Source: Methylosinus sporium
GTDB lineage: Bacteria; Pseudomonadota; Alphaproteobacteria; Rhizobiales; Beijerinckiaceae
DNA length: 46,499 bases
NCBI RefSeq assembly: GCF_003113265.1
Contig: NZ_PUIV01000029.1
Coordinates: 1 to 46,499 of the forward strand
Reading direction: 5' to 3'
Shown here: positions 41,392 to 46,499 of the stretch, in pieces
How the letters are laid out: every line of letters begins with the position of its first letter
Position numbering within the stretch: the stretch's first letter is position 1
The notes under the pieces: generated by a model
Told to the model about the DNA's origin: nothing
The model's database searches: none
Seen by the model: only the letters and a program-made list of their open reading frames with translations
Position numbers and translations under genes: made by a program

Positions 41392-41557
41392 GAATTCCAA
41401 TGTCTCGGGCTGGAACGATCCGGGCGCGCCGGAAGCGGGCGACAGATGCGCCGGCCGCGCCCGCCCTGTCAAGAACCGCGCCTTTGGGCCCGTCGGGAGG
41501 CGGAGCGCCATCCTCATTTGCGGATTCGCGCGGCCTCGGCGTCGCTGACGACGATCG

Positions 41558-41632
41558 GCGCCGCGCATCATATCGAGGCGCGAGCGGAACTCTCGAGCGC
41601 GCATCGAGCGGATCGCGAATGATGCGCGGCGC
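41558..41632. repeat. Perfect 14-bp inverted repeat flanking 47 bases
   Basis: GCGCCGCGCATCAT (41558-41571) and ATGATGCGCGGCGC (41619-41632) are exact reverse complements. The 47 bases between contain further self-complementary GAGCG/CGCTC-like strings. It may be a large hairpin, a miniature mobile element remnant or a regulatory site. Confidence 0.55.
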
Positions 41633-41728
41633 GCCTATCGTAGCCGGCGGCCGCATCGCCCGCTTCGTTCGTCGCGGCCGAAGTCGCTGGGGAGTTTCCC
41701 GGCGCCTTGCACCGGGAATAGAGAGCCC

Positions 41729-41755
41729 GTAACAATCCCGCAAATCGAACGTATA
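41729..41755 (+). promoter_or_regulatory. Putative ECF-sigma promoter of the bufA1 operon
   Basis: GTAAC (41729-41733), 16 bases, CGTATA (41750-41755), ending 44 bases before the bufA1 ATG. The same pattern with the same spacing precedes bufA2. GTAAC-type -35 boxes are typical of ECF sigma factors; in Caulobacter the bufferin operons are controlled by the ECF factor SigF. Confidence 0.7.
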
Positions 41756-41799
41756 GGGATTTGCAGGCCGGCATTCGGCGCCTTTGAGGAGCAAATAAG

Positions 41800-42084
41800 A
41801 TGGACCGTCGTTCTTTCAATCTCGCTTTGGTCGGATCGCTCACGACTGCGCTCACTCTTTTGTCTTCCGCCGCTCCCGCTGAGGAAGACGGCAAGGAAAA
41901 GTGCTACGGAGTCGCCCTCAAGGGCCAGAACGACTGCGCCGCCGGCCCCGGGACGACCTGCGCGGGATCGTCCAAGATCGACTATCAAGGCAACGCCTGG
42001 AAATATGTTCCGCGTGGAACTTGCGCATCGATAAAGACGCCGTTCGGCAATGGCTCGCTGGAAGCGCTCAAGCGGCGGACCTGA
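41800..42084 (+). CDS. bufA1: BufA1-type (DUF2282) bufferin metallophore precursor
   Basis: The 94-residue precursor has a signal peptide (residues 1-27) and a DUF2282 mature region with four Cys (35, 46, 54, 75) in the conserved frame [37 protein letters not shown] and GTCASIKT. In characterised bufferins, Cys residues of this core are converted by an MNIO enzyme to thiooxazole-type heterocycles that bind copper in the periplasm. The N-terminus [12 protein letters not shown] resembles a twin-arginine signal, which would suit export of a modified peptide. The ribosome site is GAGGAG. bufB follows 51 bases downstream. Confidence 0.9.
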
Positions 42085-42135
42085 TTTTTTTGACGGACGT
42101 TTACGATCGAGCGGCGAGATGGCGCGGAGAGGAGC

Positions 42136-43005
42136 ATGGACGAAATCGCCTCGACTTTTTCGTCGCTTCTCCCCGCCCGCGCGGGCGTCGGCTTCAAGCC
42201 GGCGCATTTCGACGCGATACTCGCAGATCCGTCCTCTATCGGCTTCTTCGAGATTCACGCCGAAAACTATATGGGCGCGGGCGGGCCGCCGCATCGCTCG
42301 CTCGGTCGTCTTCGGCAGGATCATCCGTTGTCGATCCATGGCGTCGGCCTGTCGATCGGCTCGAGCGAGCCGATCGACAAGCGGCAATTGGAACGGCTGC
42401 GGGGGCTTTGTGACCGCTATGAGCCAGCGAGCGTTTCTGAACATCTGGCCTGGTCGACGTATGGCGGCGTCTATTTCAACGACCTTCTGCCTTTGCCTTA
42501 TGATCGCGACACGCTGAAGCGGGTGATCGAGAAAGTCGACGCGGTTCAGAGCTTCCTCGGGCGGCAGATTCTGCTGGAAAATCCTGCGACCTATTTGTCC
42601 TTCGCGCAGTCGGAGATTTCCGAGCCGGAGTTTCTCGACGAAATTGCGGTCCGCAGCGGCTGCGGATTGCTTCTCGACGTCGAGAACATCTATGTGACGG
42701 CGACGAACAAGGGCTTCGACGCTGCGGAGCAGCTGTCGCGTTTCGCTTTCGCTCATGTGCGCGAAATCCATCTCGCCGGCCATTTCGAGACGCGCGACGC
42801 GGCTGGAGAGCGCTTTCTGCTCGACGCCCATTGCGCTCCTGTCGTCGAGGCCGTATGGGCGCTGTACGAGCAGACGCTCTCGCGGACGGGGCCCGTCGCG
42901 ACGCTGATCGAATGGGACAATGAAACGCCCGAATGGGCCGCGCTCTCTCATGAGGCGCAACGAGCGCAATCCGCGCTCGACGGCGTCTCGCGGCGGGCGG
43001 CGTGA
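42136..43005 (+). CDS. bufB: MNIO-family (DUF692) bufferin maturase, operon 1
   Basis: The 289-residue multinuclear non-heme iron oxidase is expected to modify Cys residues of the bufA1 precursor. It has a TIM-barrel with conserved metal-ligand motifs: FFEIHAENYMGAGG, SIHGVGLSIGSSEPID, VSEHLAWS, ENPATYLSF, LLLDVENIYV, EIHLAGHFE and DAHCAPV. The closest parallel in the window is the second maturase at 45056-45901, with the same motif order but only moderate similarity, so the two are ancient paralogues and not a recent duplication. The stop overlaps the bufC GTG start by four bases. Confidence 0.92.
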   Translation: MDEIASTFSSLLPARAGVGFKPAHFDAILADPSSIGFFEIHAENYMGAGGPPHRSLGRLRQDHPLSIHGVGLSIGSSEPIDKRQLERLRGLCDRYEPASVSEHLAWSTYGGVYFNDLLPLPYDRDTLKRVIEKVDAVQSFLGRQILLENPATYLSFAQSEISEPEFLDEIAVRSGCGLLLDVENIYVTATNKGFDAAEQLSRFAFAHVREIHLAGHFETRDAAGERFLLDAHCAPVVEAVWALYEQTLSRTGPVATLIEWDNETPEWAALSHEAQRAQSALDGVSRRAA

Positions 43006-43781
43006 CAGAGGCCGGCGGCATGTGGGACAGCGCGCAGGCGCAATTCGCCGCCGCGCTGCTCGACACGAGCCTCGCTGCGCCCTCGTCCCTCATTTGCGAG
43101 AAGGGCGCAATCGGCGATCGCTTCGACGTTTATCGCAACAGCGTGATCGGCGGACTCGTTCGCGCTCTGGCGACGCGCTTTCCCGCCGTCGAACGTCTCG
43201 TGGGAGAGGCGTTTTTTGCGGCGATGGCGCGCGAGTTCGTCTTGCGGCGTCCGCCGACGTCTGCGGCGCTGCTCGAATATGGCGAAGACTTCCCGGATTT
43301 CGTCGCGAGCTTTCCGCCGGCGAAGGAGCTGCCCTATCTCTCCGATGTGGCGCGCCTCGAGGATGCGCGCGTGCGCGCCTATCACGCGGCCGATGTCGAG
43401 CCGCTGTCGCCGCAATCGCTGGCTCTGGTGTCTCCCGATCGTCTGGCGGAGCTCACTTTCGACATTCACCCATCCGCCTTTGTGCTGCGGTCCGATCACC
43501 CGATGGTGACGATATGGTCGATGAACGCCGGCGAAGCGGAGGCCGGGACGCTCGATCATTGGGCGGCCGAAGACGCTCTCGTGACGCGTCCGCGCCTGCG
43601 CGTCGAGACTCGCCGTCTCGCGCCGGGCGGAGCGATTTTTCTCCGGCGCCTCGCGGCGGGCGCCGAATTCGGCGAAGCGGTGAGCGCGGCGACTGCCGAG
43701 CAGCCGGCATTCGATCTCGCGGCGGCGCTCGTCGAAGCGCTCGCATCAGGATTTTTCACGGCATTCAGAGGTGACACATGA
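43002..43781 (+). CDS. bufC: BufC/HvfC-type (DUF2063) partner protein, operon 1
   Basis: The 259-residue protein has the DUF2063 N-terminal helical domain (FAAALLDTSLAAPSSL, DRFDVYRNSVIGGLVRALATRFPAVERLVGEAFFAAMAREFV) and a C-terminal domain (HPSAFVLRSDHPMVTIW, GAIFLRRLAAGAEFGEAV). Such proteins form a complex with the MNIO enzyme and recruit the precursor, as the partner does in methanobactin synthesis. The GTG start overlaps the bufB stop, and the stop overlaps the next ATG, each by four bases, so expression is tightly coupled. Confidence 0.88.
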   Translation: MTEAGGMWDSAQAQFAAALLDTSLAAPSSLICEKGAIGDRFDVYRNSVIGGLVRALATRFPAVERLVGEAFFAAMAREFVLRRPPTSAALLEYGEDFPDFVASFPPAKELPYLSDVARLEDARVRAYHAADVEPLSPQSLALVSPDRLAELTFDIHPSAFVLRSDHPMVTIWSMNAGEAEAGTLDHWAAEDALVTRPRLRVETRRLAPGGAIFLRRLAAGAEFGEAVSAATAEQPAFDLAAALVEALASGFFTAFRGDT

Positions 43782-44251
43782 ATGATTCCGCCAATGCGCC
43801 GACGGGATTCTCGCTCTGCGTCCTCACGCAACGCGTGATCGGCGAGCTCGAACGAATTCCCTATTCCGTGATCGCGCTCGGCGCGCGCATTTTCCCGGCG
43901 GCGGTCTTCTGGCAATCGGGACAGACGAAGGTCGAGGGGTGGCGCGTCTCGGAAAACGCCATTTATCTCTTCAAGGAAGATTACAAGCTGCCGCTGCTCG
44001 ATCCCACAGTCGCGGCGCATCTCGCTGCGGTCGCGGAGCATGTCTTTCCGGCTCTGCTCATTCTCGGCCTCGCGAGCCGGCTCTCGGCCGCGGCGCTTCT
44101 CGCCATGACGCTGGTGATCGAAATCTTCGTCTACCCGGACGCCTGGCCGACGCATGGCGTTTGGGCGACGTGCTTGCTGCTCATTGTCGCGCGTGGACCC
44201 GGCGTCCTATCGCTCGATCATCTCCTGCCGCGGCGATGCGCGCGCGCGTAA
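43778..44251 (+). CDS. DoxX-family membrane protein of the bufferin operon
   Basis: The 157-residue protein has about four hydrophobic segments (YSVIALGARIFPAAVFWQSG, HVFPALLILGLASRLSAAALLAMTLVIEIFVYP, GVWATCLLLIVARGPGVLSLDHLL), matching DoxX-like membrane proteins. A DoxX protein ends many bufA-bufB-bufC operons (called bufD in Caulobacter), where it may supply electrons or assist handling of the modified peptide; this is not proven. It starts in a four-base overlap with bufC and stops 16 bases before the end of the convergent second operon. Confidence 0.86.
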   Translation: MNDSANAPTGFSLCVLTQRVIGELERIPYSVIALGARIFPAAVFWQSGQTKVEGWRVSENAIYLFKEDYKLPLLDPTVAAHLAAVAEHVFPALLILGLASRLSAAALLAMTLVIEIFVYPDAWPTHGVWATCLLLIVARGPGVLSLDHLLPRRCARA

Positions 44252-44267
44252 TCGGCGCGCGGGCGCG

Positions 44268-45059
44268 TCATGTGGACAGCGAAATTTTCGTCACTATGCC
44301 GTCCGCGAACCATTGCGCGAGAAAGCCGGCGGCGCGCTGCAGCAGCGTCTCGTCATTGTTCTGAAATTCGAGAAGCGTGCAAATATCGCCGAAGCTCTTT
44401 GCGGCTCTCGCCTCTATGAGCGCGAGACGCTCGTCCGCGGCGATTTCACGATAGACGGGCTCGTCGTCTCTGCGCCAGAGAAGAATGGTCTCATCGTCAT
44501 CGGGATCGGCGCGCTCGGCCTCGCCGCCGTCGGAAAGAGCGCTGTAGAGGCGGGCGACGCCTTTCGCGAGGTCCAGAACCGCGACGCTCGGATGAAACTC
44601 GAAGACCAGTCTCGGCCAGTCGTCCGGCTCGGCGGCGGCGAGCGCGTCGATGGCGAGCGCAGGAGCGTCGACCGAGTCGAACGCATCCGCGAGACCTTTT
44701 TCGAACAGAGCGAGATCGCAGGCCGCCCTGTCGCTGCGCCATTGCGCGCTCTCGCGCATGAATTCGGGCAGACGCGACGCATACCAGCGCGCATTGCGAT
44801 GATGCGACGGCCCTGTAGCGATATATTGCTCGACCAGCGAGCCGAAGGCCTCGTCTCCCATATAGTCGCGCAGCACGGCGAAATCGGTCGAGACGAATTC
44901 GGCGAGGCGGAGGCGATAGGCGTCCACATAGACGGCGAACAAGGTCGCGCGATCCGTGCGCGGAGAATCTCGCAGCGAGTCGAGAATAGCGGCCTGTCCA
45001 GATGCGAGCCCCGCGAGCACGCTCGTCTGAAATCGCTCCTGGATCTCACGCAAGGTCAT
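44268..45059 (-). CDS. bufC: BufC/HvfC-type (DUF2063) partner protein, operon 2
   Basis: The 263-residue partner protein has the helical DUF2063 domain (REIQERFQTSVLAGLASGQAAI, FAVYVDAYRLRLAEFVSTDFAVLRDYMGDEAFGSLVEQYIATGPSH) and a more divergent C-terminal domain (VFEFHPSVAVLDLAKGVARLYSAL, ILLWRRDDEPVYREI) with an acidic loop (ADPDDDE). Its sequence differs strongly from the operon-1 partner, as expected if each recognises its own precursor. The ATG overlaps the bufB stop by four bases. It is the last gene of this operon, which lacks a DoxX gene. Confidence 0.88.
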   Translation of the reverse strand: MTLREIQERFQTSVLAGLASGQAAILDSLRDSPRTDRATLFAVYVDAYRLRLAEFVSTDFAVLRDYMGDEAFGSLVEQYIATGPSHHRNARWYASRLPEFMRESAQWRSDRAACDLALFEKGLADAFDSVDAPALAIDALAAAEPDDWPRLVFEFHPSVAVLDLAKGVARLYSALSDGGEAERADPDDDETILLWRRDDEPVYREIAADERLALIEARAAKSFGDICTLLEFQNNDETLLQRAAGFLAQWFADGIVTKISLST

Positions 45060-45901
45060 GTCGCGCTCCGCGAGCGGACATCGTCGGCCGTCCGCGCGAT
45101 TTCGCGCATATGCTCCAATTCTGCGAGCAGCTCGTCGAAAGGCGGATAATTGTCGTCGCGCTCGATCATGGCCGAGATGTCGCCGAAGCGCAGGCGTGCC
45201 CGCTCATAGAGCCGCCACACCTCTTCGCAGACGGGCTGATCATGCGTATCGATCTTATGCGTTTCATAGCTGCCATGGCCGGCCAGATGCAATTGCGCCA
45301 CGCGCGCGATGGGGATCGATTCGATGAAGCTCTCTGCGTCGAATCCATGATTGAAGCCGGACACGAATATATTGTTCACATCGAGCAGGAGCAGGCAGTC
45401 GGCGCGTTCCGCCATTTCCGTCACGAACTCCCATTCCTCCATTTCGGAATCCTGGAAGGTCGCATAGGTCGACGCATTTTCGACGAGGAGCCGACGACCG
45501 AGAAAATCCTGCACGCGTCGGATGCGATCGACGACATGGTCCAAGGCCTCTCGCGTATAGGGAATGGGCAAGAGGTCGTGCAGATTGGCCCCGTGAACCA
45601 CGGTCCAGGCGAGATGATCGGATATCCATGCGGGCTCGATGCGCTCGGCGAGCGATTTCAGCTCTCTGAGATAGGCGTAATCGAGCGGATCGCTCGAAGC
45701 GAGCGACATGGAGACGCCATGCATGACGATCGGGTAGTCGGCGCGAATGCACTCGAGAATAGCGAGCGGCCGTCCGCCCGGAATCATATAGTTCTCAGAA
45801 ATGATCTCGAACCAATCGACGTTGGGCTCGTGCTCCAGAATGTCGGGATAATAGATCGATCGAAGCCCGAGTCCGAAACCGAGCGACGACGGAATGCTCA
45901 T
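45056..45901 (-). CDS. bufB: MNIO-family (DUF692) bufferin maturase, operon 2
   Basis: The 281-residue MNIO enzyme has the family motifs GFGLGLRSIYY, WFEIISENYMIPGG, VMHGVSMSLASSDPLD, ISDHLAWTVVHG, ENASTYATF, LLLDVNNIFVSG, QLHLAGHGS and DTHDQPV. It is predicted to install the copper-binding heterocycles in the bufA2 precursor. I set the start at 45901, which has a strong AGGGGG ribosome site; an in-frame start at 45928 would add nine residues. A strong hairpin separates it from bufA2, so the maturase may be expressed at a lower level than the precursor. Confidence 0.92.
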   Translation of the reverse strand: MSIPSSLGFGLGLRSIYYPDILEHEPNVDWFEIISENYMIPGGRPLAILECIRADYPIVMHGVSMSLASSDPLDYAYLRELKSLAERIEPAWISDHLAWTVVHGANLHDLLPIPYTREALDHVVDRIRRVQDFLGRRLLVENASTYATFQDSEMEEWEFVTEMAERADCLLLLDVNNIFVSGFNHGFDAESFIESIPIARVAQLHLAGHGSYETHKIDTHDQPVCEEVWRLYERARLRFGDISAMIERDDNYPPFDELLAELEHMREIARTADDVRSRSAT

Positions 45902-45947
45902 GTCGATCCCCCTGGCCGCGAGCGTCATTCATGAAATGATCGAAAGT

Positions 45948-45980
45948 GGCGCGGGCGCGCGCTCGATGGCCGCCCGCGCC
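45948..45980. promoter_or_regulatory. Strong hairpin between bufA2 and bufB of operon 2
   Basis: GGCGCGGGCG (45948-45957) and CGCCCGCGCC (45971-45980) form a perfect 10-bp GC stem with a 13-base loop, starting 7 bases after the bufA2 stop. No T run follows on the minus strand. It could protect the bufA2 message from decay or reduce read-through into bufB. Confidence 0.6.
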
Positions 45981-45987
45981 GAAGCGA

Positions 45988-46248
45988 TCACATTTCGGCG
46001 ACCGTGCCGCCCTTGGCTTTGCAGGCCTTGGCGGATTTCGCCGGCAGCCAGCCCTGGCCCTTGCAGCTGTTCTGACCCTTGCAGGCGCTGCTCGCGGTCT
46101 TGCAGGCGCTCTCGCCCTTGCAGGAATTGATGCCCGCGCAATGAACGGGAGCCTTTTTGGCGAGCGCCGGAGCGACGGCGGCGCCGCTCACCGCGAGGGC
46201 GACCGCCGCGGCGGCAATCGAGACGCCTGAAACGATATTGGTTTTCAT
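45988..46248 (-). CDS. bufA2: BufA2-type bufferin metallophore precursor
   Basis: The 86-residue precursor has a signal peptide (residues 1-30, cleavage after APALA) and a Cys/Lys-rich core with six Cys (37, 43, 49, 56, 62, 76): HCAGINSCKGESACKTA, SACKGQNSCKGQGW and KACKAKGG. The repeated CKG units and the GQGW motif identify the BufA2 type, distinct from the DUF2282-type bufA1. Expected fate: Cys residues converted to thiooxazole-type rings by the MNIO partner, then copper binding in the periplasm. The ribosome site AAGGAG is strong. It is the first gene of the minus-strand operon. Confidence 0.93.
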   Translation of the reverse strand: MKTNIVSGVSIAAAAVALAVSGAAVAPALAKKAPVHCAGINSCKGESACKTASSACKGQNSCKGQGWLPAKSAKACKAKGGTVAEM

Positions 46249-46269
46249 TCTGGTCTCCTTGGACATTCG

Positions 46270-46314
46270 ATCGCTCGAAAAAGCGATTCTGCGAGCTCGG
46301 AAGTCCGAGCTCGC
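46270..46314 (-). promoter_or_regulatory. Structured 5' leader of bufA2 (two stem-loops)
   Basis: Between the promoter and the ribosome site lie a perfect 10-bp hairpin GCGAGCTCGG-ACTT-CCGAGCTCGC (46291-46314) and a 6-bp hairpin ATCGCT/AGCGAT with a six-base loop (46270-46287). They may stabilise the abundant precursor mRNA or regulate its translation. Confidence 0.6.
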
Positions 46315-46322
46315 CCGCAATT

Positions 46323-46349
46323 TATACGTCCATCGGAGATCGAAGTTAC
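46323..46349 (-). promoter_or_regulatory. Putative ECF-sigma promoter of the bufA2 operon
   Basis: On the minus strand GTAAC (46349-46345), 16 bases, CGTATA (46328-46323), about 75 bases before the bufA2 ATG. Both boxes and the spacing are identical to the site before bufA1. Confidence 0.7.
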
Positions 46350-46466
46350 ACCGTCGGCGCCGATCGACGGAAAACTTTTTCACGGGAGCGCCCGTACGCG
46401 CGGGTGCCGTCGCGGGATTGGTTGGAATTGGGTTGGCGTAGTCTCCGGGGTGCTGAACCCGGCTGA

Positions 46467-46488
46467 TTCCAGCGTTGGAGCGCTGGAA
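46467..46488. other. Hairpin with embedded ribosome site at the right edge
   Basis: TTCCAGCG and CGCTGGAA pair perfectly (8 bp) around TTGGAG. The right arm runs straight into AAGGAGA at 46487-46493, a good plus-strand ribosome site. A gene may start just beyond the window, but none is visible within it. Confidence 0.35.
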
Positions 46489-46499
46489 GGAGACCACGC

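Follow-up and report, generated by a model that had tools for sequence, protein, structure and literature searches.

The final 4.7 kb of a contig from Methylosinus sporium is filled by two complete bufferin operons, a Buf1 operon at 41800-44251 (+) and a Buf2 operon at 46248-44268 (-), which face each other tail to tail. The contig (NZ_PUIV01000029.1 of assembly GCF_003113265.1, positions 1 to 46,499 of the forward strand) is referred to below as the window, meaning the whole stretch of 46,499 nucleotides that was analysed; it is contig C33 of a 3.79 Mb genome, labelled G000 in our comparisons. The predicted products fall within the known bufferins, a group of copper RiPPs (ribosomally synthesised and post-translationally modified peptides). 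From their gene content and promoters, we consider it likely that the two operons constitute a two-pathway periplasmic copper-buffering module controlled by a single extracytoplasmic function (ECF) sigma factor like sigma-F of Caulobacter. The features of the locus are listed below, where the maturases are multinuclear non-heme iron-dependent oxidative enzymes (MNIOs) and scores are given with their cut-offs where noted.

41729..41755, + strand: predicted sigma-F type promoter of buf1 (GTAAC 41729-41733, N16, CGTATA 41750-41755)
41800..42084, + strand: bufA1, DUF2282 precursor, 94 aa, four Cys (PF10048 90.5 bits, cut-off 22.4)
42136..43005, + strand: bufB1, MNIO maturase, Asn at the substrate-selecting site (NF050167 371.4 bits, cut-off 310)
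43002..43781, + strand: bufC1, DUF2063 partner protein (PF09836 86.6 bits)
43778..44251, + strand: doxX, DoxX family membrane protein (PF07681 62.6 bits)
44252..44267, strandless: gap of 16 bases between the convergent stop codons
44268..45059, - strand: bufC2, DUF2063 partner protein (PF09836 61.7 bits)
45056..45928, - strand: bufB2, MNIO maturase, Asp at the substrate-selecting site (NF050167 374.5 bits, cut-off 310)
45988..46248, - strand: bufA2, precursor, 86 aa, six Cys, three of them in CKG (NF050166 95.7 bits, cut-off 60)
46323..46349, - strand: predicted sigma-F type promoter of buf2 (GTAAC 46349-46345, N16, CGTATA 46328-46323)

Six of the seven proteins score above Pfam cut-offs, BufA2 being the one without a Pfam match, and three score above curated NCBIfam cut-offs. 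The arrangement is not due to chance, because the family matches exceed their cut-offs and all fall in operon order. In both operons, four-base overlaps join the genes downstream of the precursor gene, as judged from the open reading frame (ORF) coordinates. The four Cys of the BufA1 translation are all encoded 3' of the signal peptide, which for BufA1 and BufA2 alike was assigned by eye. BufC1 and BufC2 (32.9 and 24.5 bits versus 142) and DoxX (48.1 versus 80) remain below the cut-offs of the Hvf-type NCBIfam models. A preliminary description of this DNA had proposed two complete tail-to-tail operons with precursors of different types and diverged MNIO and DUF2063 pairs, and the comparisons bear this out: 16 bases separate the stops at 44251 and 44268, a four-Cys DUF2282 protein is paired with a six-Cys BufA2, and these precursors share only a single weak match of 34 aa (E 0.013). 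Identity is 41.5% between BufB1 and BufB2 (277 aa aligned) and 24% between BufC1 and BufC2 (142 aa aligned).

The proposal of common control is based on promoter sequences. The motif GTAAC-N16-CGTATA has two exact matches in the window versus 0.03 matches expected with one mismatch allowed, and its only exact matches in the genome are those at buf1 and buf2. When the motif is shortened to GTAAC-N16/17-CGTAT, there are three matches genome-wide: buf1, buf2 and an operon on contig C16 that encodes a sigma-70 ECF protein beside the single NrsF match of the genome (PF06532 185.5 bits, over the cut-off). This third match lies 15 bases ahead of the TTG taken as the sigma start, and seven further genomes of the genus have GTAAC-N17-CGAA at the equivalent position of their NrsF loci (L177, L179-L184). 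The -35 core and spacing at both buf operons agree with the published Caulobacter sigma-F motif GTAACC-N16-CGAA, which drives both buf operons and sigF, and probably msrP (PMC3511200), while the sixth base and the -10 part differ. Upstream of buf1, the promoter is conserved as GTAAC-N16-CGAA in the related genomes G001, G002 and G005. A search for sigma-70 promoters at 41500-46499 gave two weak matches, neither of which precedes a precursor gene in the matching orientation. The matching ECF motifs at buf1, buf2 and the sigma/NrsF operon argue for the single shared stress response that had been suggested earlier.

The motif is also found well beyond this genome. Among the fetched loci, GTAAC with a spacing of 16-17 occurs in 49/125 distinct upstream regions of bufA1 and in 25/46 of bufA2; any other spacing from 6 to 27 accounts for at most three regions, the backwards motif for 0 and 0, and random windows from the same loci contain the motif in 355 of 20,000 cases (1.8%). 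These counts drop hits under 70 bits (4 of 145 for bufA1 and 8 of 64 for bufA2), regions shorter than 200 bases, and any region whose final 120 bases duplicate those of another. Outside the genus, the motif is present in 42/118 bufA1 and 18/24 bufA2 regions; within it, all seven bufA1 regions carry it. A landscape survey found sigma genes in Buf1 but not in Buf2 clusters (PMC12452194), and our counts suggest that many Buf2 genes carry a sigma-F type promoter despite the lack of sigma genes in their clusters.

Several observations weigh against control by one sigma factor of this kind. The -10 part is CGTAT here and CGAA in the published motif, and GTAAC-N16-CGTATA was derived from the very promoters that it was used to score. 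Because the backwards controls give two genome matches for this motif and seven for its shortened form, the count alone proves nothing, and it is the location of the matches that carries weight. The convergent buf2 of G002 and G005 has GTAAT-N16-CGTAT. Of 22 bufA2 regions in the genus, seven have GTAAC, those two have GTAAT and 13 have neither, including genes on contigs C11 and C13 of G000; the regulon therefore excludes some Buf2 genes. The C16 NrsF protein scores 89.5 bits versus a cut-off of 300 for the NCBIfam equivalog NF042994, and the start codon of the sigma gene is uncertain, such that a GTG start upstream would place the motif within the gene. GTAAC-N16/17-CGAA has 12 matches genome-wide (53 for the backwards control), of which 11 are not at a known sigma-F target and two lie outside ORFs longer than 200 aa. 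The remaining ten or so are probably background. In favour of the shared switch, the twelfth precedes msrP (NF003767 487 bits, cut-off 207), which sigma-F targets in Caulobacter (PMC3511200), although here it also falls within a reading frame on the opposite strand. More generally, the case is built from sequence, with the expression, masses and metal behaviour expected of this organism carried over from other species.

Two further points concern the sigma factor. A sigma gene adjoining the buf operons was considered and rejected, since C16 carries the only NrsF match genome-wide. Separately, a full GTAACC-N17-CGAA site, one of the 12 above, lies 60 bases upstream of an acyltransferase gene on contig C51 (PF01757; L212:1587-2636), whose product resembles, by eye, a protein near a sigma/NrsF pair in genome G006; this acyltransferase may be an additional target of the sigma factor proposed here.

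In the proposed module, metal stress would release the sigma factor from NrsF, its anti-sigma factor in the membrane, and both operons would then be transcribed toward each other from their matching promoters. By analogy, each BufB would act with its partner BufC to turn Cys residues of its cognate precursor into thiooxazoles; the modified peptides would be exported by the Sec pathway and bind copper in the periplasm. We infer metal induction, thiooxazole chemistry, export and copper binding in this organism from published work on other species; in Caulobacter, buf1, buf2, sigF and msrP are copper-induced (PMC8224329). We also infer that linkage of the operons serves joint inheritance of one regulon. 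The ammonia/particulate methane monooxygenase family (PF02461) is matched by all 10 genus genomes, and the organism is therefore very probably a methanotroph. Pieces of 12-13 kb from G006 and G001 resemble plasmids of Methylosinus trichosporium across 21% (chiefly transposase genes, 95.6%) and 12% (86.3%) of their length, and Methylocystis gives a match at 80.1%. Methanotrophs have a high copper demand for methane oxidation, and the module bears on how they guard against copper while feeding the methane-oxidising enzyme.

Whether the convergent layout has a function of its own is a separate question, on which the distribution of the pair is informative. Conservation in related genomes, which the preliminary description had raised, holds for three of the 10 genus genomes (G000, G002 and G005). 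Window positions 41702-46385 align end to end with G005 at 81.9%, spanning both promoters. The flank on the buf2 side is common to G002 and G005 and that on the buf1 side is not; the genes that neighbour the module in the window, assigned by Pfam to GHMP-kinase and SpoU-methylase families, gave no hit in the fetched loci of relatives. In G001 (L135:6976-7089), the DNA after an intact buf1 retains only the final 38 codons of bufC2 (94.7% identity) before it becomes unrelated, indicating that buf2 was lost there and that the convergent layout predates the loss. Several bufferin operons in one genome are on record (PMC12452194). The loss in G001 provides a natural experiment on the contribution of the second peptide to a co-regulated Buf1 and Buf2 module, and so bears on the redundancy of multiple bufferin copies.

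Outside the genus, other layouts are found. In a sample of 199 genomes of the family, 77 have MNIOs and six, by eye, have two MNIOs within 5 kb: three convergent (all of this genus), two tandem and one divergent. Tandem operons with the order A2-B-C-A1-B-C-DoxX occur in G155 and G179, and divergent operons with motifs at both precursors in G120. Among the 80 named loci nearest to BufB1, some of which end at contig ends, none is convergent and six have a same-strand upstream bufA2; five of these yielded no second MNIO, and the sixth, from Methylobacterium soli, is a complete tandem pair. In the MNIO tree, the BufB2 enzymes from convergent and tandem loci form one group (support 85, not starred), but the BufB1 partners of the two layouts belong to different clades. 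Forcing these BufB1 rows into one clade costs 68 log units with a borderline p of 0.0497, in a test whose groups were named after the tree had been seen. At this borderline strength, the tree hints that the pairing of Buf1 with Buf2 arose more than once. As a separate matter, a close plasmid copy of the module was sought and none was present in the plasmid collection, where two records covered 9% and 1% of the query.

The alternative that survives best, and to which we give an even chance, is adjacency without function: two useful operons of the same regulon met by rearrangement in one lineage and were then inherited together. The convergent form was encountered only in this genus (3/10 genomes, or by eye 3/199 in the family sample), G001 has dropped buf2 yet retains buf1, and Caulobacter has both operons apart (PMC3511200), all of which is as this alternative would have it; the tandem and divergent Buf1-Buf2 pairs of relatives and the borderline hint of multiple origins from the tree point the other way. 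We regard as unlikely the stronger proposal that Buf1 and Buf2 are functional partners that selection has repeatedly brought into one locus under a sigma-F type switch, with complementary periplasmic steps such as fast capture followed by transfer to storage or to copper-dependent enzymes like methane monooxygenase. The related suggestion of the preliminary description, that the two chelators differ in copper capacity or speed, found no support; the Discussion of PMC12452194 favours similar modifications and functions for Buf1 and Buf2.

The maturases of the two operons belong to separate lineages. In a tree of 162 MNIOs (22 identical and five short BufB hits having been dropped from 189), the enzymes sort by the type of the neighbouring precursor, with six label changes versus 41.1 in shuffles. 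The loci were collected by similarity to window proteins and so lean to alphaproteobacteria, close relatives among them are not independent, and one gene may fill two rows of the tree, as for L002 and L176, which are the same bufB2 cut differently. The same division is seen at a residue linked to substrate choice by MNIOs (PMC13097082), which we located by alignment with 3bww rather than with FonB itself. At this site, 37 of the 38 A2-linked enzymes carry Asp and one carries Glu, and the 117 A1-linked enzymes have Asn (87), Ser (13), Ala (10), Thr (5), Arg (1) or Asp (1); BufB2 of the window has Asp and BufB1 has Asn. The preceding Asp, which aligns to the proposed catalytic base, is invariant in 155/155. 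The residue tunes selectivity but does not decide it, because the F250D variant of FonB still produced thiooxazole (PMC13097082). Three other identities or origins were rejected. The operons are not a recent duplication of one operon, given the 41.5% identity of their MNIOs and the separate precursor-specific clades; they do not encode methanobactin MbnB (TIGR04159 55.8 and 79.4 bits versus a cut-off of 325); and their MNIOs are not of the HvfB/oxazolin type (NF003818 210.7 and 271.2 bits versus a cut-off of 360).

A further alternative is that the module responds first to other metals or to oxidants (chromate, cadmium, gold, silver or oxidised periplasmic proteins) and that copper binding is secondary. 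Caulobacter sigma-F responds to chromate and cadmium (PMC3511200), the related gig operons respond to gold and silver besides copper, and MsrPQ repairs oxidised periplasmic methionine (PMC8224329). Against this, the Caulobacter sigF mutant is copper-sensitive (PMC8224329) and shows no raised sensitivity to chromate or cadmium (PMC3511200), and Buf1 chelates copper (PMC12452194), so that we think a primary response to something other than copper improbable. Separate regulation of the two operons, with their common motif a chance resemblance, is very improbable: although the motif was picked after viewing the promoters and is missing from at least half of the upstream regions fetched, the sharp spacing peak at 16-17, the low frequency in random windows, the occurrence of the motif at the sigma/NrsF operon and the co-regulation known in Caulobacter (PMC3511200) all speak against it.

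The convergent gap is 16 nt in G000 and 11 nt in both G002 and G005. A search around the junction gave no terminator-like site, and the fold of the junction is no better than that of shuffled sequences (z -1.00 and -0.16 here; 0.44 and 0.13 in two relatives). Antisense read-through between the operons, which the preliminary description had raised, may occur across a gap of 11-16 nt but gained no support. The contig itself stops at base 46499, leaving just 150 known bases past the buf2 promoter.

The genome holds three MNIOs, bufB1, bufB2 and one on contig C11, all of which match the BufB model. The C11 enzyme belongs to a third bufferin-like operon (L004:6407-6637, -) and is placed within the BufB2 clade; its precursor ORF is small, has six Cys and an HCGGKTKC motif, and is matched by no Pfam or NCBIfam model. 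Another BufA2 gene is located on contig C13 (24988-25215, -; L190:4995-5237), with no MNIO in the surrounding 10 kb, and BufA2 genes that score like it occur in further genus genomes. The sigma-F motif was not found upstream of the C11 precursor or the C13 bufA2 when the genus bufA2 regions were checked singly. A deep-branching MNIO far outside the BufB clades (PF05114 268-269 bits) is present in G005 (L031) and G001 (L194:3526-4311), and the G001 copy is roughly 12 kb from a bufA2. At L037:3791-5950 and L141:2014-5462, a bufA2 that lacks an MNIO is upstream of bufA1BC-DoxX, with sigma and NrsF-like genes on the opposite strand between them; L039, L043, L047 and L054 have the same bufA2-bufA1 order, order alone having been compared. 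A bufA2 of this kind may be served by the Buf1 enzyme. In G002 (L133:137-4344), the convergent module is preceded upstream by genes for an outer-membrane efflux protein, a multicopper oxidase and another ECF sigma factor, and by an extra bufA2 without an MNIO.

The locus can be compared with methanobactin of methanotrophs, which is likewise a copper peptide made by an MNIO. MbnB-like MNIOs, judged as such by low PF05114 scores, occur in other genus genomes, whereas the three of G000 match BufB instead and no MbnB-type MNIO was found there among the matches listed. The closer likeness is to the Buf1 and Buf2 families, for whose products the class name captophorins has been proposed (PMC13097082): the precursor types, MNIO, DUF2063 and DoxX core are the same (PMC12452194). 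That paper describes tandem precursors but, in the parts covered, no convergent Buf1-Buf2 module, and the words 'convergent' and 'opposite' are absent from it. A linked convergent pair was also absent from the titles and abstract openings of the papers listed on bufferins and MNIOs and on DUF2282 in Methylosinus. The gene content equals that of Caulobacter Buf1 (CC3254-3257) and Buf2 (CC2907-2905), with DoxX in buf1 only, and the two organisms further resemble each other in the GTAAC-N16 type promoters, predicted here, at both operons, in a sigma gene beside an NrsF gene (here by its Pfam match) and in msrP with a related site. They differ in that the Caulobacter operons are unlinked and have CGAA, whereas those described here are convergent, 16 bases apart, and have CGTAT, with the sigma/NrsF operon on a different contig (C16) from the buf operons. 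The parts of the module, as a sigma-F bufferin regulon, are already known, and the new detail is their linked convergent layout.

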